From assembly GCF_026163685.1 (NCBI RefSeq), contig NZ_JAOXSR010000009.1, positions 124,001 to 188,000 on the forward strand: 64,000 nt of DNA. Reading direction: 5' to 3'. The notes beneath the pieces were generated by a model. The model was given only the letters and a program-made list of their open reading frames with translations, was not told the DNA's origin and searched no databases. This DNA is from Oerskovia flava. Lineage in GTDB: Bacteria; Actinomycetota; Actinomycetes; Actinomycetales; Cellulomonadaceae. A program made the position numbers and the translations under genes. Positions 27,370 to 42,007 of this stretch are shown piece after piece (the first letter of the stretch is position 1; the number at the start of each line of letters is the position of its first letter).

Positions 27370-27384
27370 GGCGGTAGCGGTGGG
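27370..27384. other. Attachment site, distal end of the integrated element
   Basis: GGCGGTAGCGGTGGG is identical to 41919-41933, the 3' end of tRNA-Ser with part of its CCA. The identity stops at 15 bases. It marks the chromosomal junction far from the integrase. Confidence 0.7.
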
Positions 27385-27604: not shown

Positions 27605-28129
27605 GGCGCCACCAAATACCCATGGGCTGACCTGCGCTTACGCACGAAATCGGACGGTGTAGCTCTCACCACGCGCCACCAGATGCACATGGGCCGGCCG
27701 AGCGGAGCGCGCCCGCTGCGGCAGGTGGCCAGACTCTCGCGGCAACGCCCTACGCAGCCGGGCCGGCGCCACCAAATACCCATGGGTCTGACCTGCGGAG
27801 ATGCTCCCACGGACGCTCCCGGACACACGATAGCGCCACCAAATACCCATGGCCTCCGGAGCGAGAGGCGCCGACGCGCGGACGGTTGGTAGGCGGCAGC
27901 GGTACGCAAAGGGCTACGGGCGCCGCCCGCCGTGACCGTCCGCAGATTACGGAGCGCAACCCCGGCACCGCTCCCAAGCGACGACGCTGCGACGGCCGGG
28001 CAGCGCGGTCGAGCGGTGGGGTGCGCGTAGCGAGCGGAGCGCGGGGTCCCACCGAGCGGCCGTGCAACCGGACGCCGCGGCGTCGTCGCCTTCGGCGCGA
28101 TGAGGTGTGGGGCCACCAAATACCCATGG
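27605..28129 (+). repeat. Five dispersed copies of a 20-22 base repeat (GCGCCACCAAATACCCATGG)
   Basis: Copies begin at 27606, 27673 (diverged: AGATGCACATG), 27766, 27833 and about 28110, all in the same orientation. Start-to-start spacings are 67, 93, 67 and 277 bases. The unit has an AT-rich core (AAATA) between a GGCGCC palindrome at one end (weak in some copies) and CCATGG at the other. Copies 1 and 3 share a further CTGACCTGCG downstream. Copies 1 and 5 share GCCTTCGG-N-GCGA upstream. On the minus strand the unit reads Met-Gly-Ile-Trp-Trp. No known repeat family was recognised. Confidence 0.8.
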
Positions 28130-28404
28130 ATGACGCGCGGCAAGCCGCCGCGCGTCGTCCTCGCGTCCGTGGCCGACACCGAGCGGGCGCCCAGCTCGGG
28201 GCGCGCGCTCCTTGAGTCAGTAGGGAAACTCCTCACGCCACCGCATGAGGAAACGCAAAAAACCGCGGCACAGAGTTAGGTCCGTTCCGGGAGTCGACCA
28301 CAACTACACAGACCCCTTCGCGAGGAGCGTCAGGGCGATCCTCCGCACTCGGCGACGGCATCCTCCGTGGTGCCGGACTCCCTCATGGCGCGGAGCGTAG
28401 GCCG

Positions 28405-28410: not shown

Positions 28411-28452
28411 GGGCTGCAGACAGGATGACCAGGTCCGACACAAGGGGCGTCA

Positions 28453-30918
28453 ATGGCGACCAAGCGGTTCTTCATCTCCCATGCCGGACCGGACAAGCCT
28501 ATTGCCCTAGAGTTGAAGGACCAGTTGCACGGTGACGCTTGGGTCGATCTGCACGAAATCGACCTTGGCGACATTCTCTGGCACGAAATCAGCGACGGCA
28601 TCGAGGCCGCCACGGACTTTATTCTGCTCTGGTCGCGCCACTCCGCCGCATCGAAGTGGGTGCAGTACGAGACAACGCTCGCATTCACTCGCTATCTCGA
28701 AGACAGCGCCATCGCGCTTCGCATTGTTTGCCTTGATGACACCAAACCTCCGCTTCGGTTCCGGCCCTTCTTGCAAGCAAGGAACGCCAAGACCGCCCAC
28801 GAAATTGCGGCTGCTCTCAGTCGAACAGCTCCGGCGCCCGTTCCAAGGCGCCGCTTCTTCAACCGCAATGATGAGATCGGGAGGATTGAGGAGCTCCTAT
28901 ATGACTCAGAACACGTAGCCGTTTGGATATGCGGAGTACCGGGAAGCGGTAAACGCTCTCTTGCACGCGAAGCACTACATCGACTCACCGCTGGATCCGG
29001 CACAGTTGCGACCATTGTGGTCACTGAGGGAACTGCAGAGCCAGAACTAAACCTGAAACTAGCTTCCGCTGTACACTCAGCACCCGCAGACTCGGATGCC
29101 GACCTGACCACACTTGTGGAACATAGTCACGGTCTCATTGCCGACTTCGTCGATGCTGGGGGCGTACTAGTATTCGAGGACGCCGAGCACTGGATCACGG
29201 AGGACGGCTCATATGGTCGCCTCGCCGCTCAGGTCGTCGACGCCGTCTACAAGACTGGCGAGAATACCGATCGACTCATCGTCTTCACATCACGCAGACG
29301 CCCAAAGGCGCAGCAGGCAATGGCAAGCTTTTACCTCCAGGGTCTTGCCAACAAGCACGCACTACCACTTCTTCGATCCCACGGGGCGATCGGGAGTGAC
29401 CCTGAGTTGACAGAGATTGCGAAAGAACTCGACGGACACCCTCTTGCCCTCGAGGTAATCGCACCCCAATTGCCACTCGCGCACAAGGCCCTGATAGACA
29501 AGCGTCATGAGATAGCCACCGACCTCATCGACCCAGCGCGCGTCGCGGCATCGACATGGCATCTTCTTGAGGCGCTCTCTCTCGTAGACGGGCCACTAAG
29601 CGGCGAGGATCTTGCATCGGTGCTTGGCCTCTCTGCGGAGGACTTCAACGCTGCCGTCAATGAGGGCACTGAGTATTCGCTCGTTCGGATCGGACACTCA
29701 AGAACCCTGAGTCTTCACCCACTGCTCCGAGACTACTTCTTGCGGTCTTATCGTAAGAATCCGGAGTACACGGAACGGACCAATGCCCTAGCCAACCTGC
29801 TCGTCGCGCGCCTCTCGGCGATCTCGACGACAGACGACACGTACGTCGCAACTCTTCTCTCTACCGTTAAGGTTCTTGGTCTGGCCGGTCGCCTCGGCGA
29901 AGCCCGTGATCTTCGACAAGGGCTCATCGGAACGCTGTATCAGACCGGGCTCGAACTGTTTCAGGAGCGGAGGTACGACTTGGCCCTGCAGCACCTACAG
30001 GAGAGTCTCACAGGAAACGCCGAGATCGACCTACCTGCTAACCAGGTGATCATCAAGACCCTGGCTAGTCTCGGGCGGCTTCCTGAAGCGCGCGAAATTG
30101 GAGACCAGCTCGTTGCTGAGAACCCACGAAACGGCGCCGTTCTTCGTGATCGTGGGCGGGTCGAGCAAATTGACCGAAAGTGGCGAGAGGCTATTCAGTG
30201 GTACGAGCGAGCTATCCCGTTCCGCAGGAATGCCGCACAGCTCTATGCAGACATCGCACAGGTTCGGATTCGGCTTGAGGATTGGCCCGGAGCCGCAGCA
30301 GCGGCAAAGACAGCAATAGATACGGGCGGTGACACGCCCTACGCCCTCTCCGTTTACTCGCAAGCGCTGGAAGCGCAAGGGCTGTTCCCTGAAGCCAAGG
30401 AGATGATGAGCCGCGCGGTCCGCCGCGAGCCGAATAATCCACGATACCGCCATAGACTGGGCCGAATCGCGCTAAGACTTAACGATCGACCCCGGGCAAT
30501 GGAAGAGTTCAAGCGCACGATAGAAATTGATCCGAGCTTTGTTGACTCGCGACTCTCGCTAGCCAGCATGCAGATCGACGACGGCGCAGTCGAGGATGCG
30601 AAGATCTCTCTAGCGGCCGCAGAGAAATCTCCGAGTGCGCCCCGGGCAGTGGTACTCAACGTTCGTGCCAAACTCGCACTGGCGGAGCGCGACCTGTCGG
30701 GAGCGCAGGCGACCGTCGATGAGGCTCTCAAGGCGCAACGTGATTCACAGAATCTCGCGCTAGCAATCAGGATACTGATTGCACGAGGGGAAGCAAGTGA
30801 ATTGTCGGTGGGACAGGCCGCCGCGCAGGTGAAGTTGCTTGCCAAGGAGTTGGATAGCACCGGTGGCCTCGCGCTGGTACTGGAACATTCGCAGCGCCAC
30901 CCGAAGTACTTCGAATAA
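28453..30918 (+). CDS. TIR-NB-ARC/STAND-TPR protein, probable antiphage defence
   Basis: This is an 821-residue protein. TIR domain: about 1-130 (FFISHAGPDKPIALELKDQL; WVDLHEIDLGD; SKWVQYE, which holds the candidate catalytic Glu). STAND ATPase: about 135-480, with Walker A GVPGSGKRS near 162, Walker B VLVFEDAEHW, an RNBS-B-like VFTSRRRP and a GLPL-like GHPLALEV. This gives the NB-ARC order known from plant NLRs, followed by a winged-helix-like part. TPR solenoid: about 480-790 (RRYDLALQHLQESL, AIQWYERAIPFR, AMEEFKRTIEIDPS). Inference: TPRs sense a phage signal and the TIR domain depletes NAD. GC is clearly lower than in neighbours. Confidence 0.85.
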   Translation: MATKRFFISHAGPDKPIALELKDQLHGDAWVDLHEIDLGDILWHEISDGIEAATDFILLWSRHSAASKWVQYETTLAFTRYLEDSAIALRIVCLDDTKPPLRFRPFLQARNAKTAHEIAAALSRTAPAPVPRRRFFNRNDEIGRIEELLYDSEHVAVWICGVPGSGKRSLAREALHRLTAGSGTVATIVVTEGTAEPELNLKLASAVHSAPADSDADLTTLVEHSHGLIADFVDAGGVLVFEDAEHWITEDGSYGRLAAQVVDAVYKTGENTDRLIVFTSRRRPKAQQAMASFYLQGLANKHALPLLRSHGAIGSDPELTEIAKELDGHPLALEVIAPQLPLAHKALIDKRHEIATDLIDPARVAASTWHLLEALSLVDGPLSGEDLASVLGLSAEDFNAAVNEGTEYSLVRIGHSRTLSLHPLLRDYFLRSYRKNPEYTERTNALANLLVARLSAISTTDDTYVATLLSTVKVLGLAGRLGEARDLRQGLIGTLYQTGLELFQERRYDLALQHLQESLTGNAEIDLPANQVIIKTLASLGRLPEAREIGDQLVAENPRNGAVLRDRGRVEQIDRKWREAIQWYERAIPFRRNAAQLYADIAQVRIRLEDWPGAAAAAKTAIDTGGDTPYALSVYSQALEAQGLFPEAKEMMSRAVRREPNNPRYRHRLGRIALRLNDRPRAMEEFKRTIEIDPSFVDSRLSLASMQIDDGAVEDAKISLAAAEKSPSAPRAVVLNVRAKLALAERDLSGAQATVDEALKAQRDSQNLALAIRILIARGEASELSVGQAAAQVKLLAKELDSTGGLALVLEHSQRHPKYFE

Positions 30919-31179: not shown

Positions 31180-32352
31180 TTAATCTTCGTTCGCATCAGC
31201 GACTTCGACTCGACGACTTAACAGCGCCTCAACTAGAGCGGACCGCGCCGTGCGAGTTCGCTCAACCTCTTCTGCTACCGCCGCGACCTGGCGGTCAAGG
31301 GCGTCGATCGCGTCAGCGATCTCCGCCTGCACGGCTGGCGGCGGGACAGGCACGGTCATGCGGGCGAGGTTGTCCCTGGATACGCGCACGACCTTGGTAT
31401 CGGAGTACACATGCTGCACCTGTTCGCGCAAGCCCGGTGATGCAAAGAGGTATGCGGCGAAGCGCGGCTCGAGCGAATGGTTGAGAATGTACGCGTCGTC
31501 GTGGACAGCGACCGGCTCCTCTCCACACCAAGCAACCGCCTTGAGCACACCTTCCACGTTCTCACTGGTTCCTGCGATCACCAGGTCGCCCGGTTCTGCG
31601 AAGCGCAACCTCGAACGCATCGTCTCCGGCAAGTGCGAGACGACTTCCCGCGTGTAGGCCCCGAAGTCCGTGTGGATCTGTGAGTAGTGGATACAGCCGA
31701 TGCCTTCGGGTACATAGTCCGCTTTGACGAAGCGCTTGCCTCGCGTGAGCGGACCTAGCTTCCCAACGGGAAGATCTTCCCAAGTCTCGTCCCGCCGCTG
31801 AAGGAGCTCATGCAATAGAGCGGCGCGAACAGCCCCGGTCGCCTCGATCTCGCCCTCGAGAGCTCCGATGGTCTTATCGACAGCCGAGATGACAGTCACG
31901 ATACGTTTCTGAACCGGCACCGGCGGATGCGGGACTTGCCACGCCTCGAAGTCTGGCTCCTTCCAACGAGCCCTGCCATCTCGACCCTCCCTGAGGCCGT
32001 CGATCTGGTCAAGCGTGGCTCGGTTCGAGAAGCACAACACCAGAAAACGCGAATCCAACGCATCCGGGTCAACTTTGTAGAGCGGGAACTCATTTGTAGC
32101 CAACGCACCATCGAGCTCGGGAGGCACTACTGCAAAGGGACCGTTCTGAGCGTCGATACGGCAGAAGACGAAGTCGCTCTCGCGGGCGATGCCGAGGGAC
32201 TTGGTCTTCGGCCTGCTGGGAGGACGGAGGTACGCGCCCTTCCCGTACCACCGGACACCCATCGTGTCGTACTCGGTCTCGGGCTCGACCGAGACCTTCT
32301 CCCGACTCCGAGCGACGTGCTCACCGACGGTAGTCAGAGGCCACTCAGCCAT
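31180..32352 (-). CDS. Specificity subunit (HsdS-like, BcgIB-like) of restriction-modification system
   Basis: This is a 390-residue protein with two target-recognition domains separated by helical spacers. First half-site: WPLTTVGEHVARSREKVSVEP, ending VPVQKRIVTVISAVDKTIGALE. Second: EDLPVGKLGPLTRGKRFVKADYV, ending PPPAVQAEIADAIDALDRQVAAVAEEVERTR. The second terminus repeats the PP(P/V)xVQxxI pattern of the first. It overlaps the methyltransferase gene by eight bases. It recognises a bipartite DNA site that cannot be deduced from sequence. Confidence 0.9.
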   Translation of the reverse strand: MAEWPLTTVGEHVARSREKVSVEPETEYDTMGVRWYGKGAYLRPPSRPKTKSLGIARESDFVFCRIDAQNGPFAVVPPELDGALATNEFPLYKVDPDALDSRFLVLCFSNRATLDQIDGLREGRDGRARWKEPDFEAWQVPHPPVPVQKRIVTVISAVDKTIGALEGEIEATGAVRAALLHELLQRRDETWEDLPVGKLGPLTRGKRFVKADYVPEGIGCIHYSQIHTDFGAYTREVVSHLPETMRSRLRFAEPGDLVIAGTSENVEGVLKAVAWCGEEPVAVHDDAYILNHSLEPRFAAYLFASPGLREQVQHVYSDTKVVRVSRDNLARMTVPVPPPAVQAEIADAIDALDRQVAAVAEEVERTRTARSALVEALLSRRVEVADANED

Positions 32353-34207
32353 CGAATCCTCCGATGCCAGCTTCTGTCAGCACTGCATCCATTGCGGCCT
32401 GTGCTTCTTCCCGGGTCGCGCGCGCCTCCTGCCAATCCGCGATCGCCGAATCCAGATCGTGCGACTCGGCCTGTGGCCACGGATTGGGACAGACGCCACG
32501 CGCCACCAACCGGCCGGAGTCGGTGAAGATCGGAGTACGCCACGACCTCGCCGCCTCGTCCTCAACGCTGTCACGAATAGCTCGCCTAACGTTCCGGCTA
32601 ATCGCCGGCCACGCCCCGGTGTCACGCCTGCCGTAGTGCACCTGCACCTTGTGGCCGTCCTCGGTCATGTCAACGAAGGTCACCAGTGCGTCCTGGGTAT
32701 GACCAGTACTAGTCTTTGTGAAGCCAAAGATGGAGGTCTTTACGCCGCGGTTCTGTTCGAAAAAGAGTTGCTGCGGCATATCGATCACGAAGTCGAGACG
32801 AGCCCTGCCGAGAATCGCAAGGGCCGCCTTCTCGCTGCTCGCCTTCGAGAGGGTGTTGTTCGGCATGATTATGACGAGCCGACCTCCCTCCTCGAGGTAC
32901 TCAATCGCCGACATAGTAAAGGGAATCGCAAGGTCATTCTCGTACGGGGGATTTATTATGCACTTTGTGGGCTTTAGGCTCTTGATATAGTCGCGTAGTC
33001 GGAGATCCGGGGCCGCGACAGCAAACGTTCTACCGCGCGTGACCAAAGAGTCCCGGAATAGGAGGTTGGATCGCCCGTCACCGTGGAGGAACATATTTGA
33101 GCAAGCCAGGGCGAATAGAATCGGATCGAGTTCAATACCAATCAGCTGGCGTTCATGAATGTGGTCGATCCGCTTCTCGTCGCCGTGCGCCTGGTCGACG
33201 AGTTGCTCCATCGCATCCATGAGGAAGCCCCCAGCCCCCATGCAGGTGTCAAGGACGACGTCGTCGCGAACGAGCGATGCCAAATCGACCATGAGGGTCT
33301 TGATATGGTCCGGCGTCAGGATAATATTCTTGTTATCCATCTTGCCTGCACGAGATAAGAACACCTTGTATGCTCGACCCAGGATGTCCCGCTTCGTCGC
33401 GTTCTTCGACGGCTGGTGAACTCGCTCGTCAATGTCACTAACGATCTTCTTGTACTCCGCCAGCGGAATATCGACCGTCTTGACGAACGCAAAGCGATCG
33501 CCCCAGTCAATCTTCTTCGACTCTGAGTTTACCTTCTTGACCAGCTGGCGACGGACGGCATCGATAACCTGGTTGTTGAGGTAGTGCGCCTCAACAAGAC
33601 GTTCGTCTTCGGGCTTACCCATCGACATGTAGACATTGCGAAACTGCTGGTCGTCGAGCGCGATCATCAGGGCTGAAAAGAAGAGCGACCGTTCGGTGTC
33701 ACGGACGCGAGAATCCTTGTGGAATCGCTCGTTTATCTGCACCAGGAACCGGCGCAGTTCGGCGTCAGAGAGCGGGTCGCCAAAGGCGGCGGTCTCATAG
33801 TGCTTCGTCAAGGCGGCGAGGCTTACGAGGCTGCGCGGCTCGGCGAGCTCCTCAATCTCGTCCGTACCGCCCCTGCGAAGGAAGTGGGTAACGCGAAGCG
33901 ACTCCTGGGCCTGCCCGGAGACAGCGATGCCGACGATGTCAACATGCGGCACCGCGTTCGTAGTCATATAGCTGCGAATGTCAGCCTCGGCGGCCGCGTG
34001 GTCTGATTTGGGCCCTTGAGCGCCTGATTTGGCCTCTACAACAATAAGCCATGAGCCCATGTCCTTGAAGAAATCTGGAAATCCGTCAACCGTCGAAGTC
34101 GCGCGCTTGGACTGGAACCCGAACTTCTTGGGGATGTCACGCTTCTCTGTAAACGTTGAGGCCCCATAGAATTCACGGAACAGGTTCTCTGTCGTGCTCT
34201 CCGCCAC
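32345..34207 (-). CDS. Fused endonuclease-methyltransferase subunit (BcgIA-like)
   Basis: This is a 620-residue protein. The N-terminal ~100 residues hold a PD-(D/E)xK nuclease signature: FPDFFKDMG, then VVEAKSG. The remainder is an HsdM-like adenine methyltransferase with motif I DTCMGAGGFL (about 325) and motif IV INPPYEND (about 420), plus the helical N6_Mtase N-domain. The GTG start has AGAGGAG eight bases upstream. No HsdR helicase is present, so a one-protein R and M plus one S subunit, as in BcgI (type IIB/IIG), fits better than type I. Family members methylate and cut at the same bipartite site. Confidence 0.85.
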   Translation of the reverse strand: MAESTTENLFREFYGASTFTEKRDIPKKFGFQSKRATSTVDGFPDFFKDMGSWLIVVEAKSGAQGPKSDHAAAEADIRSYMTTNAVPHVDIVGIAVSGQAQESLRVTHFLRRGGTDEIEELAEPRSLVSLAALTKHYETAAFGDPLSDAELRRFLVQINERFHKDSRVRDTERSLFFSALMIALDDQQFRNVYMSMGKPEDERLVEAHYLNNQVIDAVRRQLVKKVNSESKKIDWGDRFAFVKTVDIPLAEYKKIVSDIDERVHQPSKNATKRDILGRAYKVFLSRAGKMDNKNIILTPDHIKTLMVDLASLVRDDVVLDTCMGAGGFLMDAMEQLVDQAHGDEKRIDHIHERQLIGIELDPILFALACSNMFLHGDGRSNLLFRDSLVTRGRTFAVAAPDLRLRDYIKSLKPTKCIINPPYENDLAIPFTMSAIEYLEEGGRLVIIMPNNTLSKASSEKAALAILGRARLDFVIDMPQQLFFEQNRGVKTSIFGFTKTSTGHTQDALVTFVDMTEDGHKVQVHYGRRDTGAWPAISRNVRRAIRDSVEDEAARSWRTPIFTDSGRLVARGVCPNPWPQAESHDLDSAIADWQEARATREEAQAAMDAVLTEAGIGGFDG

Positions 34208-35002: not shown

Positions 35003-35770
35003 TCAGTCGGGCATCGTGAAGGTGTAGGTCCATGCGAACCGGGAAGCCGCGTGGATGCCCTCGGCGTACTCGACAACACGTCCACCTCTGGTCTTGGTCG
35101 TTCGGTGCAGCACCATGACTGGTTCACCGACGGGCATCTCGAGCACGGCGGACTCGTTCGGCGTCGGCATGCGTGCCGTTAGTGTTTCAGTGATCTCGTC
35201 CGGCTCGAGGCCCTGCAGAGTGAGCACGGCGAATCCTCCCCCGCGCCCGGCGGGACCCGGCGATGGATCGGCGAGGGGCGTGCCCGCCACGTCCTCGGCA
35301 CGGTAGTAGCTCGTGAGGGTGTGAGTGGGCTGGCCTTCGTGGCGTACGAGGCGCGCTCGCGCGTAGACCTCCGACCCGGGCTCAAGTTGCAGCGCGTCCG
35401 CCACGTGCGTCGGAGCCGTGAGCCGCTCCACCGTCTGAGTCTGGTCGTTCCGGTGCCACGTCTGCCCGTTGGTCTCGCGGTCGGCGACGAACGCAACGCG
35501 GTCACCGAACTTCCAGTTGCTCTTGGCGTAGCGCTCCATGCCGAGACGACGCATCGGAGGGCGCGACCGGACAACGGTTCCACGCCGACGCACGGGCGTG
35601 ACGAGACCTTCGGACTCCAGAAGCGCGACAGCGTTGCGGACGGTCTTGATGTTGACCGCGTAGTCGCGGGCGAGGTCGGCTTGCTTGGGCAGCGTTGAGC
35701 CCGGCGGGTAGTCACCTCGATGGATGCCCTCCCGCAGGATACCCGCGAGCTCCCTGTAGCCGTGTGCCAC
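35003..35770 (-). CDS. GntR-family regulator of the element (KorSA-like)
   Basis: This is a 255-residue protein. N-terminal winged helix: YRELAGILREGIHRGDYPPGS, TLPKQADLARDYAVNIKTVRNAV and LESEGLVTPVRRRG. The C-terminal UTRA-type domain is at about 85-250. The GTG start at 35770 is set by a strong AGGAGGT six bases upstream; an in-frame GTG six codons earlier is less likely. It is divergent from the pra-tra-rep-xis-int genes, as KorSA is in pSAM2, and probably represses them through the inverted repeat at 35835-35879. Confidence 0.88.
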   Translation of the reverse strand: MAHGYRELAGILREGIHRGDYPPGSTLPKQADLARDYAVNIKTVRNAVALLESEGLVTPVRRRGTVVRSRPPMRRLGMERYAKSNWKFGDRVAFVADRETNGQTWHRNDQTQTVERLTAPTHVADALQLEPGSEVYARARLVRHEGQPTHTLTSYYRAEDVAGTPLADPSPGPAGRGGGFAVLTLQGLEPDEITETLTARMPTPNESAVLEMPVGEPVMVLHRTTKTRGGRVVEYAEGIHAASRFAWTYTFTMPD

Positions 35771-35834
35771 AACCTCACCTCCTAGCACTTAAGGGTAGTG
35801 CTAACACCTTCGTCGACGACACTTGGAGAGTAGG

Positions 35835-35936: not shown

Positions 35937-36368
35937 ATGGCGATGAAGCAGCGGTTCGACATCGAGCACTCGGTGGCGTTCCCGAAGGGTGCGTTCCTGC
36001 GCGGGGAGGTCGAGCCCGTGGCGGACTTCAACGCGGCGCAGCGGCCGGACGGTACGCGCCCGCAGCAGCACGACAAGGAGACGGGCCTGCCACTGTGGCA
36101 GTGCGTCGTGATCGACGGTGACGAGGACGCCGGCCGCAAGGAGATCGGCGTGACGGTGAAGTTCGCGGCCAAGTACCAGCCGGTCCCGCCGGAGAACAAG
36201 TCCGGGTTCCCGTGGACGCCGGTCGAGTTCGTGGGCCTGACGGCCCTCCCCTACGTCGACGACAACGGGATGCGCCCGCGTATCGCCTGGTCGTTCCGTG
36301 CATCCGACCTCGTCGCGCCCGGCCAGTCCCGCGAGGCGGCGAAGACGAGCCCGAAGGCCGCGGCGTGA
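35937..36368 (+). CDS. pra: Pra-like activator of element replication, integration and excision
   Basis: This is a 143-residue protein. The layout (KQRFDIEHSVAFPKGAFLRGEVEPV, then WQCVVIDGDEDAGRKEIGV, and FVGLTALPYVDDNG with AWSFRASDLVAPG) matches Pra-type proteins of pSAM2-like elements. AAGGAG precedes the ATG. The stop overlaps the GTG of tra as GTGA, so it heads the transfer/replication operon. Function is by family analogy. Confidence 0.75.
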   Translation: MAMKQRFDIEHSVAFPKGAFLRGEVEPVADFNAAQRPDGTRPQQHDKETGLPLWQCVVIDGDEDAGRKEIGVTVKFAAKYQPVPPENKSGFPWTPVEFVGLTALPYVDDNGMRPRIAWSFRASDLVAPGQSREAAKTSPKAAA

Positions 36369-37876
36369 TCACCGCGCGGCTCTGGCAGGGGGTCCGCCGC
36401 GTCCTGTCCGCGATGTGGCTCGCGCTGCGGTGGACCGTCCGAGCGTGGCGGTGGATCGCAGCGACGCTGCTCGCGGGCGGCGTGTTCGGCCTCCTCGGCT
36501 ACGACGCACTGTCGACGGCGTTCTACTGGTCTGTCCCTGCCTGGAACCTCGTCCGCGCATTCTGGGCGGTGTTCAGCCCGATGACGTACGAGCCGCTGCT
36601 CGGCGGCCCGCTGCGTCGTCACAGGTGGCGCAGGTACGTGCGTCAGCAGTGGCCTTCGATGGCGGAGTCCTGCGGGCTCGCTGACCGGGTCGTTCGGGAG
36701 AACCGGACGGTCCCGCGGCTGCTCCGGGTCCGGGCACACGACAACGCGCTGACGATCCGTGTCCGCGCCCGTTCGGGTCAGACGCTCGACGACCTGCGTG
36801 GTGCCGTCGAGGCGGTCGGCACGATCATGGGCGCCGAGGCGTCGACGAGCCGTCGCGTGCGTCCCGGGGTGCTCGACATCGTGCTGACGATGGCCGATCT
36901 CCTCGACCAGCCGCTCTACGCGACGATCCCGAGCGACGTCGACCCGACCGGGGTGCAGCTCGGCCGTATCCAGGACGGCAACCGGTGGCGGCTCACGCTG
37001 CGCGGGTTGCAGACGCTCGTCGTGGGGTGCTCGGGCTCCGGCAAGGGCTCAGTCTTCTGGGGCATCGCCGGAAACCTTGCCCCGGCCGTGCAGGCGGGCA
37101 TCGTGCGGCTCTGGGGCATCGACCTCAAGGGCGGCATCGAGATCGGCATGGGTGACGGCTTGTTCTACCGCGTGAGCACCGACGAGCACCAGGCCGTCGA
37201 TGCGCTGCGGGACCTGCTCTCCGTCGTCGACCTGCGGCAGAGGGCCATGTACGGGAGGACGCGCGACTTCGTGCCGTCGCCCGGGGACCCGGTGCACGTG
37301 CTCCTCATCGACGAGCTCGCCGTCCTGACCGCCTACGCGTCCAAGCAGGTGCAGAGCGAGGCATCCGACCTGTTGCGGCGCGTCCTCACCCAGGGTCGTG
37401 CGCTCGGTGTGCTCGTCGTCGCGTTCGTGCAGGACCCGCGCAAGGAGACCGTGGCGATGCGCGGCCTGTTCACGCAGACTGTCGCGCTGCGGCTGCGCTC
37501 CGCGTCCGAGACGGCGATGGTGCTCGGCGAGGGCATGGCCGACGTCGCACCCGCGCACCAGATCAGCCCGGCGCACCCCGGCACGGGCTACGTGGTCGCG
37601 GACGACGGGAACGTGGAGCGGGTCCGGGCGGACTTCTGGGAGGACACGTTCATCCGGATGGTCGCCCACACGTACCCGGCGCCCGACCGGTACGTGCCGC
37701 CGCCGATCTTCGTCGGCCCGCCGACGCCCGTCGTCGACGACAAGGCGGACACTCCCACGAGGGTCCCGGCCGAGGAGCAGCGAGTCCCTCGCGCACCGCG
37801 CAAGCCGCGTTCTCCTCGCAAGCCGCGCGAGACGGCGACCCGTACGACGTCCGCCGCTGAGGCGTCGAATGACTGA
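36365..37876 (+). CDS. FtsK/SpoIIIE-type DNA translocase (TraSA-like)
   Basis: This is a 503-residue protein. Two N-terminal membrane helices (about 20-65; RWIAATLLAGGVFGLLGYDA) precede the ATPase domain with Walker A VVGCSGSGKGSVFW near 221 and Walker B VHVLLIDELAVL near 315, then TQGRALGVLVVAFVQDPRKE. The tail is Arg/Pro rich. In AICEs this single protein moves double-stranded DNA between mycelial cells. The GTG start overlaps the pra stop; the 3' end overlaps rep by eight bases. Confidence 0.9.
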   Translation: MITARLWQGVRRVLSAMWLALRWTVRAWRWIAATLLAGGVFGLLGYDALSTAFYWSVPAWNLVRAFWAVFSPMTYEPLLGGPLRRHRWRRYVRQQWPSMAESCGLADRVVRENRTVPRLLRVRAHDNALTIRVRARSGQTLDDLRGAVEAVGTIMGAEASTSRRVRPGVLDIVLTMADLLDQPLYATIPSDVDPTGVQLGRIQDGNRWRLTLRGLQTLVVGCSGSGKGSVFWGIAGNLAPAVQAGIVRLWGIDLKGGIEIGMGDGLFYRVSTDEHQAVDALRDLLSVVDLRQRAMYGRTRDFVPSPGDPVHVLLIDELAVLTAYASKQVQSEASDLLRRVLTQGRALGVLVVAFVQDPRKETVAMRGLFTQTVALRLRSASETAMVLGEGMADVAPAHQISPAHPGTGYVVADDGNVERVRADFWEDTFIRMVAHTYPAPDRYVPPPIFVGPPTPVVDDKADTPTRVPAEEQRVPRAPRKPRSPRKPRETATRTTSAAEASND

Positions 37877-39461
37877 CGTCTCTCCCGCGCAGGGTGGGTT
37901 CCCGGGGTTCGGGCTGGACGCCCCGCTCGACCTCGGGAACCTTGCCCCGGCGGCGGTCGCCGGGATCTCTGCACGGTTGCGCGACCGCACCGCCGCAGCG
38001 TTTTCCGACGCCGCCGCCCGTACGGGCTTCTGCTCGCACCCGATCCGGTTGCGCGGCTCCTCGACCACAGTCGACGCGGCCACGGGTGAGGTCCTGTCGC
38101 AGTTCAGCTCCGACGACGCGCCGCTCGGCCTGCTGTACCGGGCGTGCGGTAGCCGGCGCGAATCCGTCTGCCCGGCCTGCTCCCGCGTCTATGCGCGCGA
38201 CACGTTCGAGATGATCCGGGCGGGCCTCCTGGGTGGCAAGACCGTGCCGACCGCCGTCGCGGACAACCCGCTGGTCTTCGCGACCCTCACCGCCCCGTCG
38301 TTCGGCCATGTCCACGGCGTCCGCTCCAAGCACGGCAGGTCCGCCCGCTGCCGACCGCACGGGACCGGGACATGTCCACACGGCAGCCCGCGCGCGTGCA
38401 CCACGCAGCACTCCGACATCGATCCTCTCGTCGGGTCGCCGCTGTGCGAGGCCTGCTACGACTGGCACTCGGCCGTCGTGTGGCAGTGGCACGCCCCGGA
38501 ACTGTGGCGGCGCTTCACGATCGCGTTGCGACGTCAGGTCGCCGAGGCTCTGGGCGTCCGCGAGTCGGCGCTCGGCACGGTGGCCTCCTCGCAGTTCGCC
38601 AAGGTCGCCGAGTACCAGGTGCGCGGCCTCGTGCACTTCCACGCCCTCATTCGGCTCGACGGTCCCGACGGCCCGGGCAGTCCCGCTCCCCTCGACGGCG
38701 CAACCCTTGCGCATGCGGCGCGGGCTGCCGCCCGAGCGGTCGTCGTCACGGCTCCTCCGGTGGACGGTGCGGACGTCCCGCGCGTGCTGCGCTTCGGTAC
38801 GCAGCTCGACGTGCGGTGCGTGCGCACTGGCGTACCGGAGAACGAGGACGGTTCCGACGACCTGCGGCCCGAGCAGGTGGCTGGCTACCTTGCGAAGTAC
38901 TCGACCAAGGGAACGGGCACCGACCTCGCGTCGCCGCGTCCGCACCACCAGCGCATGGTCCGCACGTGCAGGTGGCTCGCCGAGCGCGCCCGTACCGCCT
39001 GCCGTGGCCTCACCGGCCCGGACCTGGAGGACGACGAGGGCTGCGTCTGCGGGCAGTGCGCCGACGGCCCGTACCGGTTGCTCGCGAAGTGGGCGCACAT
39101 GCTGGGCTTCCGCGGTCACTTTTCGAGCAAGTCGCGGCGCTACTCGATCCCGCTCGGGCGGTTGCGCCGGGCTCGCCTCCGGTTCCAGCGGCTCAAGGCC
39201 GATGCCGAGCGGGACGGAACCCCGATGGACATCACCGACCTCGAGGCCCGCCTGCTCGCCGAGGACGAGACGACTCTCGTCGTCGGCTCCTGGTCCTACG
39301 TGGGCTCCGGGTGGACCAATCCCGGCGACAAGGCGCTGGCCGACGCGGCCGCAGCACGCGCCCGCGAGTACGCGCAGTGGAAAGCGCAGGAACGCGCCGG
39401 CCAGCGACCGCAGCTGGGCATCCCCCAACGGGGCGGAGTCCCGATCACGCCCGCAGCGTGA
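37869..39461 (+). CDS. Rolling-circle replication initiator, RepSA-like
   Basis: This is a 530-residue protein. HUH-type motifs are visible: FATLTAPSFG (motif 1), LVHFHALIRLDG with HxH near 255 (motif 2) and VAGYLAKYSTKG with catalytic Tyr/Lys near 340 (motif 3). Cys-rich pairs (CPACSR, CEACYD, CVCGQC) suggest metal binding. It initiates autonomous rolling-circle replication of the excised element. It overlaps tra by eight bases. Confidence 0.88.
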   Translation: MTDVSPAQGGFPGFGLDAPLDLGNLAPAAVAGISARLRDRTAAAFSDAAARTGFCSHPIRLRGSSTTVDAATGEVLSQFSSDDAPLGLLYRACGSRRESVCPACSRVYARDTFEMIRAGLLGGKTVPTAVADNPLVFATLTAPSFGHVHGVRSKHGRSARCRPHGTGTCPHGSPRACTTQHSDIDPLVGSPLCEACYDWHSAVVWQWHAPELWRRFTIALRRQVAEALGVRESALGTVASSQFAKVAEYQVRGLVHFHALIRLDGPDGPGSPAPLDGATLAHAARAAARAVVVTAPPVDGADVPRVLRFGTQLDVRCVRTGVPENEDGSDDLRPEQVAGYLAKYSTKGTGTDLASPRPHHQRMVRTCRWLAERARTACRGLTGPDLEDDEGCVCGQCADGPYRLLAKWAHMLGFRGHFSSKSRRYSIPLGRLRRARLRFQRLKADAERDGTPMDITDLEARLLAEDETTLVVGSWSYVGSGWTNPGDKALADAAAARAREYAQWKAQERAGQRPQLGIPQRGGVPITPAA

Positions 39462-39672: not shown

Positions 39673-39900
39673 ATGAGCACCACCAGCGTGAGCCAGATCG
39701 ACGGCGCGGCGACCCGCCGACGCCTCATGACGCCCGAGGAGTTGGCCGAATACCTCGGTGTGACGCTGCACTGCGTGTACGCGTGGTCCAGCCGCGGCGG
39801 CGGCCCGAAGGTCGTGCGGGTCGGGGCGCGGCTCCGGTACCGGCCCGCCGACGTCGAGCAGTGGCTCGACCGCGTGACCGACTCCGGCGCGGCGGGCTGA
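39673..39900 (+). CDS. xis: Excisionase Xis (MerR-type helix-turn-helix)
   Basis: This is a 75-residue protein with one winged-helix domain: LMTPEELAEYLGVTLHCVYAW, then GGGPKVVRVGARLRYRPADVEQWLD. It is typical of AICE excisionases. The stop is three bases before the integrase start, so the two are cotranscribed. The 210 bases upstream, after rep, hold no gene. Confidence 0.9.
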   Translation: MSTTSVSQIDGAATRRRLMTPEELAEYLGVTLHCVYAWSSRGGGPKVVRVGARLRYRPADVEQWLDRVTDSGAAG

Positions 39901-39903
39901 GGC

Positions 39904-41133
39904 ATGGCACGCAAGCCCATCGAGCCCGGCCGGTGGGGCCGAATCAGCCGCAAGGAGATCACCCCTGGCGTGTGGCGTGCGCAGGCGCAGTACCGCGACT
40001 TCACGGGCGTGCTGCACAAGTACGAGTCGCGAGGTCCGTCGGGGGCCGCAGCGCAGCGAGCCTTGGAGGACAAGCTGCACCACGCGAGCAGCGAGGCCAC
40101 GGTCCCCGGGACGGCGACGATCACCCCGACGACCCGCATGGGTGTCGTCTTCGATCACTGGATCGCGGAGAAGCGCGTCGAGGGCCAGATCACCATGCAG
40201 TCGCTCGAGACGTACCGCGGCGTTCTTGATCGGGACCTGCGGCCCGCGCTCGGCCTGCTGCGGGTCCGGGAGGTCACACCCGTCGCGGTGAACCGCGTGC
40301 TCATGGCGCTGAGCACGGCGCAGAAGTACGACACCGCGAGGCAGGCTCGCAACGTCATGTCCCAGGTCATGATGATGTGCGTCCGCTACGGCGCTTAGCC
40401 GTTCAACCCGGTCCGTGACGCGGTGACCGTTCGCAAGCCACGGCGGGCCGAGGTGCGCACGCTCGGGCTTGAGGAAATCGCATTGCTGCGCAAGGCCGTT
40501 CGCGAGTGGGAGGACCGTCCCGCGCTCGCCCGTGGTCGCCGCAACGTGAGGCTTCTGCCGCAGATCGTGGACACGATGCTCGGCACCGGGCTGCGGATCG
40601 GCGAGTGCCTGGCTCTGCGGGAGGCGGACGTCGACCTCGACGCCGAGGTCCCGACGCTCACCGTGACCGGGACCGTCGTCCGGGCCGACGGCCGGCTCGT
40701 GCGGCAGCCCAAGCCGAAGTCCGACTCGTTGCGGCGCACGATCAGGCTCCCCACGTTCGTCGTCGCCGCGATCCGTGAGGCGCTGGACCTCGGCCTGGAC
40801 GGCGGCTCAGACGGCCTGGTGTTCCCCTCCACCCGGGCTACGCCCCGCTCCCCCAGCCGGGTGCGCGACCAGCTCCGCGAGGCGCAGGCCGCCATCGGCA
40901 CTACGGTTACTCCGCACGACTTCCGACGCAACGTGGCGACGCAGGTCGCGAACTCGACGACGATCGGGAACGCGACGGCGCTGCTCGGTCATGCCGACGA
41001 GGGCACCACCGTGCGGCACTACGTGAAGCGAACCCACGTGGCGCCGGACCTGCGGATCGTCATCGACCAGCTCGTCGCCGAGGCGGCAGCGACCACGGAA
41101 GGTCCTCCGCGACCCACGCTGCATACTGGCGCC
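39904..41133 (+). pseudogene. int: Tyrosine integrase interrupted by in-frame TAG
   Basis: The frame gives a phage-type integrase. Residues 1-164 (arm-binding and SAM-like core-binding domains) end at TAG 40396-40398, between RYGA and PFNPVRDAV. The same frame continues with all catalytic residues: Arg in GTGLRIGECLAL, Lys in KSDSLRRT, HxxR in TPHDFRRN, LLGHADEGTT and Tyr in RHYVKR. A single base change from a sense codon (for example TTG) would explain it. There is no stop after the catalytic domain: the frame runs into the DUF2625 protein. Either a recent nonsense mutation, readthrough or a sequencing error is possible. It sits next to the tRNA target as expected. Confidence 0.85.
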
Positions 41134-41793
41134 ATGGTTCTCCAGAGCGGTGCCCAGCTTGCCGACGTCGACGACCCCGCGTGGCCCAGGCTCCGCGAAC
41201 TCATCGATACCGCGCCCAGTACGCGGGCTCTGCCCGTCTCGAGCGCTCAGGGCCTGCGCACGCTGGAGTCTCTTCAGGTCACCGCCCGGTCGACCCTCGG
41301 TGCCCTCGCCCTCAACTGCGGCGCGATCACCGCCGACCACGGATGGTTCCGCCTTCTCGGGGGTGGCGGAGACGGCCTGCCGGACCTCGCAACGGCCAAC
41401 CAGCTGAGCCCCGACAACCCCACGCCGCCCCCGTACATGCTGGTGGGGTACGACGCAGTGGGTGGGCGCTTCGCGATCGACGGGGGCGGTCTGGGCGTGG
41501 CGCCCGGGCAGGTCTGCTACTTCGGCCCGGACACTCTGCAGTGGGACGGACTCGGCGGTGGACACTCCGCCTTCGTGGAAGCGGTCATCACCGGAGCGAT
41601 GGGCGAGACGTTCGCCGACCTCCGCTGGAGCACGTGGCAGCGCGACGTCGAAGCCCTGGGACCCGACCAGGGGTTCAGCATGTATCCGCCACCCTTCAGC
41701 GAGGAAGGTCGCGATCTGGACAACGTCTCACGCCGCCCGGTACCGCTCTCGGAGCTCTTCGCCTTCTACGACGAAGCTTCGGCGAAGCTCTGA
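41134..41793 (+). CDS. DUF2625 protein
   Basis: This is a 219-residue protein when started at the ATG. Family motifs are ESLQVTARSTLGALALNCGAI, DHGWFRLLGGG, VCYFGPDTLQWDGLGGGHS, FADLRWSTWQRDV and VSRRPVPLSEL. It is in frame with the integrase and no stop separates them. A separate start is plausible: CATACT lies a few bases before the ATG and no ribosome-binding site is seen, the pattern of a leaderless promoter. Function is unknown. It may be cargo acquired between int and the att site. Confidence 0.8.
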   Translation: MVLQSGAQLADVDDPAWPRLRELIDTAPSTRALPVSSAQGLRTLESLQVTARSTLGALALNCGAITADHGWFRLLGGGGDGLPDLATANQLSPDNPTPPPYMLVGYDAVGGRFAIDGGGLGVAPGQVCYFGPDTLQWDGLGGGHSAFVEAVITGAMGETFADLRWSTWQRDVEALGPDQGFSMYPPPFSEEGRDLDNVSRRPVPLSELFAFYDEASAKL

Positions 41794-41917: not shown

Positions 41918-42007
41918 TGGCGGTAGCGGTGGGATTTGAACCCACGGTGGACTTTCACCCACACACGCTTTCGAGGCGTGCTCCTTAGGCCGCTCGGACA
42001 CGCTACC
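41918..42007 (-). tRNA. tRNA-Ser (anticodon CGA), CCA encoded
   Basis: This is a 90-base serine tRNA on the minus strand. Acceptor GGTAGCG pairs with CGCTACC, discriminator G, then encoded CCA. The anticodon loop CTCGAAA sits in stem CACGC/GCGTG. A long variable arm precedes the T arm GTGGG-TTCAAAT-CCCAC. It is the integration target of the element to its left; its 3' end is supplied by the element side. Confidence 0.95.
41919..41933. other. Attachment site, integrase-proximal (within tRNA-Ser)
   Basis: GGCGGTAGCGGTGGG is the copy of the 15-base direct repeat that lies inside the intact tRNA. Its partner is at 27370-27384. Confidence 0.75.

Follow-up and report, generated by a model that had tools for sequence, protein, structure and literature searches.

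The gene at positions 28453-30918 of the window (the whole stretch of 64,000 nucleotides of Oerskovia flava DNA analysed here) probably encodes an NLR-like receptor for defence that functions as a one-gene system. Its product is best read as a divergent TIR-NLR relative from an actinobacterium and would work through NAD-cleaving abortive infection. The initial annotation had already proposed an NLR-like immune candidate; what it observed is confirmed, and its interpretation is borne out in part. This reading gains from the match in design to a one-gene TIR-NLR validated against phages (Rousset et al., 2022, PMC9122126) and from the position of the gene as sporadically distributed cargo of a mobile element. 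The protein shows the domain order of such a receptor, its key residues are conserved in its relatives, and a distant homology to TIR-NLR extends along its whole length.

Domain architecture and conservation of the putative receptor

The gene starts with an ATG behind the sequence AAGGGG at 28442-28447, which by eye resembles a Shine-Dalgarno site, and comprises the following features:

28453-30918, plus strand: TIR-STAND(NB-ARC)-TPR gene, 821 amino acids, ATG start
28468-28788, plus strand: TIR_2 domain, residues 6-112 (Pfam, 2.6e-16)
28669-28671, plus strand: catalytic-type glutamate E73 of the TIR domain in the SKWVQYE motif, aligned with the AbTIR glutamate
28855-29772, plus strand: STAND/NB-ARC switch and winged-helix part, about residues 135-440 (Pfam NB-ARC, motifs, matches to PH0952 and 9m0n)
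28951-28953, plus strand: lysine K167 of the intact P-loop, GVPGSGKRS
29176-29178, plus strand: Walker-B-like E242 in LVFEDAEH, read from the motif, with E in place of D
29929-30822, plus strand: TPR sensor array, about residues 493-790 (Pfam TPR models, AlphaFold helices, VIA-align)

This order of TIR, NB-ARC-like ATPase and TPR repeats is the one proposed in the initial annotation, and it is borne out by the domain matches. Several Pfam TPR models match residues 495-780 or thereabouts, the best at 6.5e-16, and the helices suggest by eye about eight units of 34 residues. The NB-ARC match (residues 140-355, 1.8e-4) is a weak call, since its 21.3 bits lie below the Pfam gathering cut-off of 23.5 bits. 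Further motifs of the nucleotide-binding part are TSRRRP (279), GHPLALE (328) and LHPLLRDY (421), so that the protein has the P-loop, sensor-1 arginine motif, GxP motif, winged helix and superstructure-forming repeats of a STAND protein with a TPR sensor. No DNA-binding domain was found in it with Pfam.

Three further full-length copies, 47-69% identical to the Oerskovia protein along the whole chain, were found scattered within its taxonomic order:

L004, Agromyces sp. NDB4Y10: 69% identity in the alignment
L005, genome G139, same genus as L004: 51% identity in the alignment
L006, genome G284: 47% identity in the alignment

A copy in G1138 shares its contig coordinates with L004 and was taken to be that one. 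Because the whole chain is conserved in three other genomes, the gene is more than a chance open reading frame. All four members keep WVQ[YF]E, G..G.GKRS, TSRRRP, GHPLALE and LHPL.RDY, down to 47% identity; the SKWVQYE glutamate, GSGK lysine, TSR and GLPL-like motifs singled out in the initial annotation are thus present and shared by the family. The glutamate at the active-site position of the TIR domain, E73, is invariant in the four and aligns under the YE glutamate of the NAD+ hydrolase AbTIR (8g83), among the nearest solved TIR domains, which we take to be the catalytic residue of AbTIR. E242 is likewise invariant, and the residue that follows it varies in the family alignment (E-D, E-D, E-G, E-E).

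Pairwise identities among the four sequences are highest in the TIR domain (56-82%), followed by the TPR part (49-68%, and 51-75% in its core at residues 560-700), the ARC/winged helix (46-66%) and the nucleotide-binding domain (39-64%). As a tendency among four sequences, conservation of the TPR part equals or exceeds that of the nucleotide-binding domain, unlike a fast-diversifying sensor. The suggestion in the initial annotation that the sensor repeats are specific for a phage trigger loses weight here, since repeats that vary no more than the ATPase weaken the idea of a sensor dedicated to one such trigger.

AlphaFold models were calculated from two sequences, the Oerskovia protein and its L004 relative. 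The full-length model was poor (pLDDT 51.4, pTM 0.28), with TIR blocks at pLDDT 40-72, and the TIR domain modelled alone reached 36.4. Residues 591-690 of the TPR array formed helices with pLDDT 75-91, and VIA-align gave Z-scores of up to 18.4 with designed TPRs over residues 593-708. A structural search of the TPR part had been suggested in the initial annotation; it returned TPR proteins, and the model supports a TPR fold for residues 593-708. With the full model, the matches listed by Foldseek and VIA-align were TPR proteins only, 9m0n not being among them; these lists do not judge the TIR and NOD folds.

Copies of the gene are rare and sporadic: the search of the order found them in 3 of 396 genomes, and searches of two genera that include carriers in 1 of 44 and 2 of 60. 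Wider searches gave 2 of 394 genomes for the class and, in two sets from the phylum, 1 of 396 and 1 of 246, with misses possible since the first pass of these class and phylum counts scored two or six candidates per genome; all counts include the Oerskovia genome itself wherever it was searched. Scans of viral contigs found no close relatives. The Oerskovia protein had no match in phage records, where its Agromyces relative gave a weak TIR match only, and plasmid records gave only a match confined to the TIR domain, in Streptomyces. A 469-residue open reading frame at a further locus (L011, genome G065) contains a TIR domain related to that of the Oerskovia protein (2.2e-18).

The carrier element and the neighbouring genes

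Judged from its genes and termini, the carrier of the receptor gene is a pSAM2-type actinomycete integrative element (AICE) of 14,564 bp, with the receptor gene as cargo at its distal end. Its other features are:

27370-27384, no strand: attL-type 15-bp direct repeat
31180-32352, minus strand: restriction-modification (R-M) specificity (S) subunit (Methylase_S 1.3e-8; PADLOC Specificity_I 2.6e-32)
32345-34207, minus strand: R-M fused nuclease-like/N6 methyltransferase protein (N6_Mtase 1.4e-25; PADLOC REase_MTase_IIG 6.4e-35)
35003-35788, minus strand: GntR/UTRA regulator of the element (Pfam)
36212-37876, plus strand: FtsK/SpoIIIE-like (TraB-type) transfer protein (Pfam)
37869-39461, plus strand: RepSA, pSAM2-type replication initiator (start chosen within the longer ORF 37398-39461, to which the match of 6.6e-149 refers)
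39673-39900, plus strand: Xis-like HTH_17 protein (1.4e-12)
39904-41793, plus strand: tyrosine integrase with DUF2625 in frame at the C-terminus and an in-frame stop at 40396-40398
41918-42007, minus strand: tRNA-Ser
41919-41933, no strand: attR-type 15-bp direct repeat within the tRNA-Ser 3' end

The location on a mobile element, as claimed in the initial annotation, is thus confirmed by the 15-bp repeats at the tRNA-Ser 3' end together with RepSA, the FtsK-like protein, the Xis-like HTH protein and the integrase, which are the usual marks of an AICE (RepSA-type Rep, FtsK/TraB, Xis/Int and, with direct repeats, insertion at the 3' end of a tRNA gene). The longest match in 200 dinucleotide shuffles was 13 bp, as against the 15 bp of the att repeats. 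The integrase is not intact: the in-frame stop breaks it, so that the element may have lost the ability to move with it. A DUF218 protein is also encoded between the att repeats. The lower GC content noted earlier also holds: the receptor gene has 58.4% GC, the S gene 61.7% and the methyltransferase gene 57.7%, whereas the rest of the window, beyond the element, has 72.4%; the other three copies have 59-62% versus 68% in their surroundings. A place of the gene in the chromosomal core was considered and rejected on the grounds of GC, sporadic occurrence and att repeats.

Elements with RepSA occur widely in the order: 23 of 189 genomes have a match at 1e-60. From 27 matched places we compared five related elements by tblastn at 1e-5; three genomes contributed their top match each, with two further places taken from G164. 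RepSA was found in all five, Xis in three and parts of the integrase in two, and neither the TIR gene nor the R-M genes in any, from which it follows that the TIR gene and the R-M pair are cargo. A gene 64% identical to the GntR/UTRA regulator adjoins RepSA at another locus (L039).

Two observations concern the element itself. The DUF2625 domain (3.3e-55) lies in frame behind the catalytic part of the tyrosine integrase. Adjoining the left attachment repeat, at 27606-28132, are five direct repeats of 21-23 nucleotides in one orientation, four of them exact in the core GCCACCAAATACCCATGG; allowing up to two mismatches, the pattern has four sites genome-wide, all within 27606-28132, and none in the reversed control. 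They are possibly binding sites of a protein of the element.

The adjacency of an R-M system stands as the initial annotation had it, with both genes on the minus strand (31180-32352 and 32345-34207). By eye, the methyltransferase protein carries a PD-(D/E)XK-like motif at its N-terminus, and our reading of the compact pair, in which the S subunit is a protein of its own and the methyltransferase has a nuclease-like N-terminus, is a BcgI/Type IIG-like system. As far as the other three loci were read, they lack the R-M neighbour, and two of these three copies lie near other R-M, TIR or nuclease genes. L005 has a ThsB-type TIR protein (ThsB_TIR 1e-18) and a SLATT protein as neighbours, with an open reading frame of integrase-like sequence (by eye) near tRNA-Phe/Asp/Glu. 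Beside the L006 copy are genes for an IrrE-type protein and for a DUF6602 protein similar to nucleases of the NucC type. The L004 copy lies outside any recognised element; upstream of it are genes for ribonucleotide reductase and glutaredoxin, downstream one with a DUF488 domain, and no defence gene was seen among the ten open reading frames scanned there. As the neighbours differ among the four loci and no partner is constant, the TIR-STAND-TPR gene most likely acts alone, as a one-gene system. A joint system of R-M pair and TIR gene was rejected, given that the other three loci have no partner in common and that tblastn at 1e-5 found none of these genes in the five related RepSA elements compared.

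At 11917-13543 of L005, the ThsB-type TIR gene lies directly beside the SLATT-domain gene (two SLATT matches), possibly as a two-gene TIR-SLATT defence unit. At 12580-15044 of L006, an IrrE/M78-type gene, an open reading frame of 159 residues and the NucC-like DUF6602 gene lie beside the relative.

Relationship to TIR-NLR and other STAND proteins

The closest design in the literature is the TIR-NLR of P4-like satellites, a one-gene TIR-STAND-TPR system that protects E. coli from phages and for which the authors propose TPR sensing, oligomerisation and NAD+ cleavage by the TIR domain (Rousset et al., 2022, PMC9122126). It shares with the Oerskovia gene the single chain of about 820 residues, the domain order and the occurrence as cargo of mobile elements among defence genes. 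The PADLOC model for TIR-NLR, PDLC03015, did not match the Oerskovia protein at E<=0.1, gave no match in the Oerskovia genome at 1e-5 and none to the Agromyces relative (P0001) at 0.01. As positive controls we used four plasmid proteins of about 820-860 residues, from Photobacterium, Enterococcus, Zymomonas and Komagataeibacter, that were matched by a piece of 9m0n; all four match PDLC03015 (824 positions), at 9.4e-277, 1.6e-20, 5.8e-44 and 1.7e-8. Aligned with hhalign to these four plasmid TIR-NLRs, the family profile gave a probability of 99.8% over 751 columns at 17% identity, an alignment supported chiefly by the TIR and NOD parts, since Neff is low in both profiles (1.8 and 2.8) and TPR columns are readily aligned. 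The Oerskovia protein itself matches three of the plasmid proteins in BLASTP, at 3e-9 to 3e-10. Given that PDLC03015 missed it but the profiles align along the whole length and BLASTP finds matches, we regard the protein as distantly related to TIR-NLR, without assigning it to the PADLOC family; the best reading of these comparisons is a divergent actinobacterial relative of TIR-NLR.

The two groups differ in the P-loop, which reads GxGKRS with the lysine kept in all four members of the present branch, whereas the four plasmid members and 9m0n have GxGRR(S/T), with R184-R185 invariant in that known branch and GVGRRS in 9m0n. The entry 9m0n/9umd is a 'Tetratricopeptide repeat protein' of 824 residues, which equals the PADLOC TIR-NLR model in length, and from this length we guess it to be the E. 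coli TIR-NLR; a literature search for the PDB codes 9M0N and 9UMD found no paper. Its TIR domain and the start of its NOD align with family profile A2 (E 8.9e-9); apart from residues 5-182, the alignment takes in just a weak piece of the winged helix.

Likeness to other systems is more partial. PH0952 of Pyrococcus horikoshii (6mfv) and MalT combine a STAND core with a TPR sensor (PMC6468293), and PH0952 matches the family at sensor 1 and GHPL (2.3e-5 with profile A2, 7.6e-6 with profile A4); these proteins differ in being without a TIR domain, MalT being a transcription activator. The plant TNP proteins (TIR-NBARC-TPR, formerly XTNX) have the identical domain order (PMC9806590, PMC9153377). 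The TNP paper reports bacterial TIR-NB-TPR proteins and 427 actinobacterial matches to the TNP NBARC model, with bacterial similarity confined to the nucleotide-binding domain (PMC9806590). The plant NBARC has MHD and TTR, whereas the present family has TSR and, at the MHD-like position, LHP in all four members; together with the 21.3 bits for NB-ARC, below the cut-off, this sets the protein apart from a plant-type NLR or TNP. The comparison with plant TNL receptors made in the initial annotation lacked the point that the architecture is already in print for both kingdoms, as TIR-NLR in bacteria and as TNP in plants. Avs5 resembles the Oerskovia protein in being a STAND receptor; its N-terminal effector cleaves NAD, as is proposed here for the TIR domain, and its trigger is a phage protein. 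Cleavage of NAD+ by a STAND defence protein has been shown for Avs5, with a SIR2 domain where the Oerskovia protein has TIR (PMC12931631). No Avs model (Avs1-5) was among the eight PADLOC matches at E<=0.1. A Thoeris ThsA partner was not found beside the TIR gene, the neighbours being R-M and element genes.

Proposed working and alternatives

By analogy with PH0952 and MalT (PMC6468293), we infer a resting state in which the TPR array and the winged-helix part would keep the STAND core closed on ADP. Binding of a trigger to the TPR array would let ATP replace ADP in the intact P-loop (K167), upon which the chains may oligomerise and the clustered TIR domains, through E73, would cleave NAD+. 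The infected cell would then stall or die before the phage, or a rival element, could spread. Several results count against this reading: the miss by PDLC03015, the NB-ARC score under the cut-off, the Walker-B-like site with E for D and a varying next residue, LHP at the MHD-like position, the poor structure models, and the L004 copy with no defence neighbour seen among the open reading frames scanned. A more specific suggestion, which we offer tentatively and hold to be rather doubtful, is that the four proteins form a separate actinobacterial TIR-NLR branch with a working P-loop lysine and a conserved sensor, switched by ATP and responding to a conserved cue. Were this so, the cue would be a fold common among phages, or a state of the host that infection upsets, rather than one variable phage protein.

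TIR_2 domains can make cyclic ADP-ribose signals, as in Thoeris, and it is conceivable, if unlikely, that the TIR domain makes such a signal nucleotide for a partner effector encoded elsewhere, without itself draining NAD+. The ThsB-type TIR and SLATT genes that adjoin the L005 relative would fit this, but they read as a unit of their own, and the four loci have no common partner (R-M; ThsB-TIR and SLATT; DUF6602 and IrrE; none recognised in L004); TIR-NLR, moreover, works as a single gene (PMC9122126). Quite improbable, in our view, is a primary role in guarding the element itself against other plasmids or elements, by exclusion or addiction, with phages as secondary targets. The gene does lie inside an element beside an R-M pair, and the TIR-NLR of P4 also acts against P2-like helper phages (PMC9122126); however, the L004 copy is outside any recognised element, and the gene, missing from the five related RepSA elements, is optional cargo. 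NB-ARC-TPR regulators are common in actinomycetes, and the conserved rather than diversified TPR array would suit a regulatory or developmental STAND protein whose TIR serves for interaction and which has no immune role. This we regard as very improbable, because the protein has no DNA-binding domain detectable with Pfam, its catalytic-type TIR glutamate is invariant in the best conserved of its domains, and the gene is sporadic, low in GC and located on a mobile element.

The preferred reading, a TIR-NLR-like receptor acting through NAD+ cleavage, leaves the knowledge of this kind of system unchanged: the kind is already known, and the Oerskovia protein is a new, distant relative. With it, the TIR-NLR design, validated against phages, gains a branch that the current defence-gene model misses, here on an actinobacterial integrative element. 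If the protein is active, the branches with lysine and with arginine in the P-loop would allow the need for ATP in the switching of bacterial TIR-NLRs to be tested, and the Oerskovia branch would let one ask how a conserved TPR sensor recognises infection.
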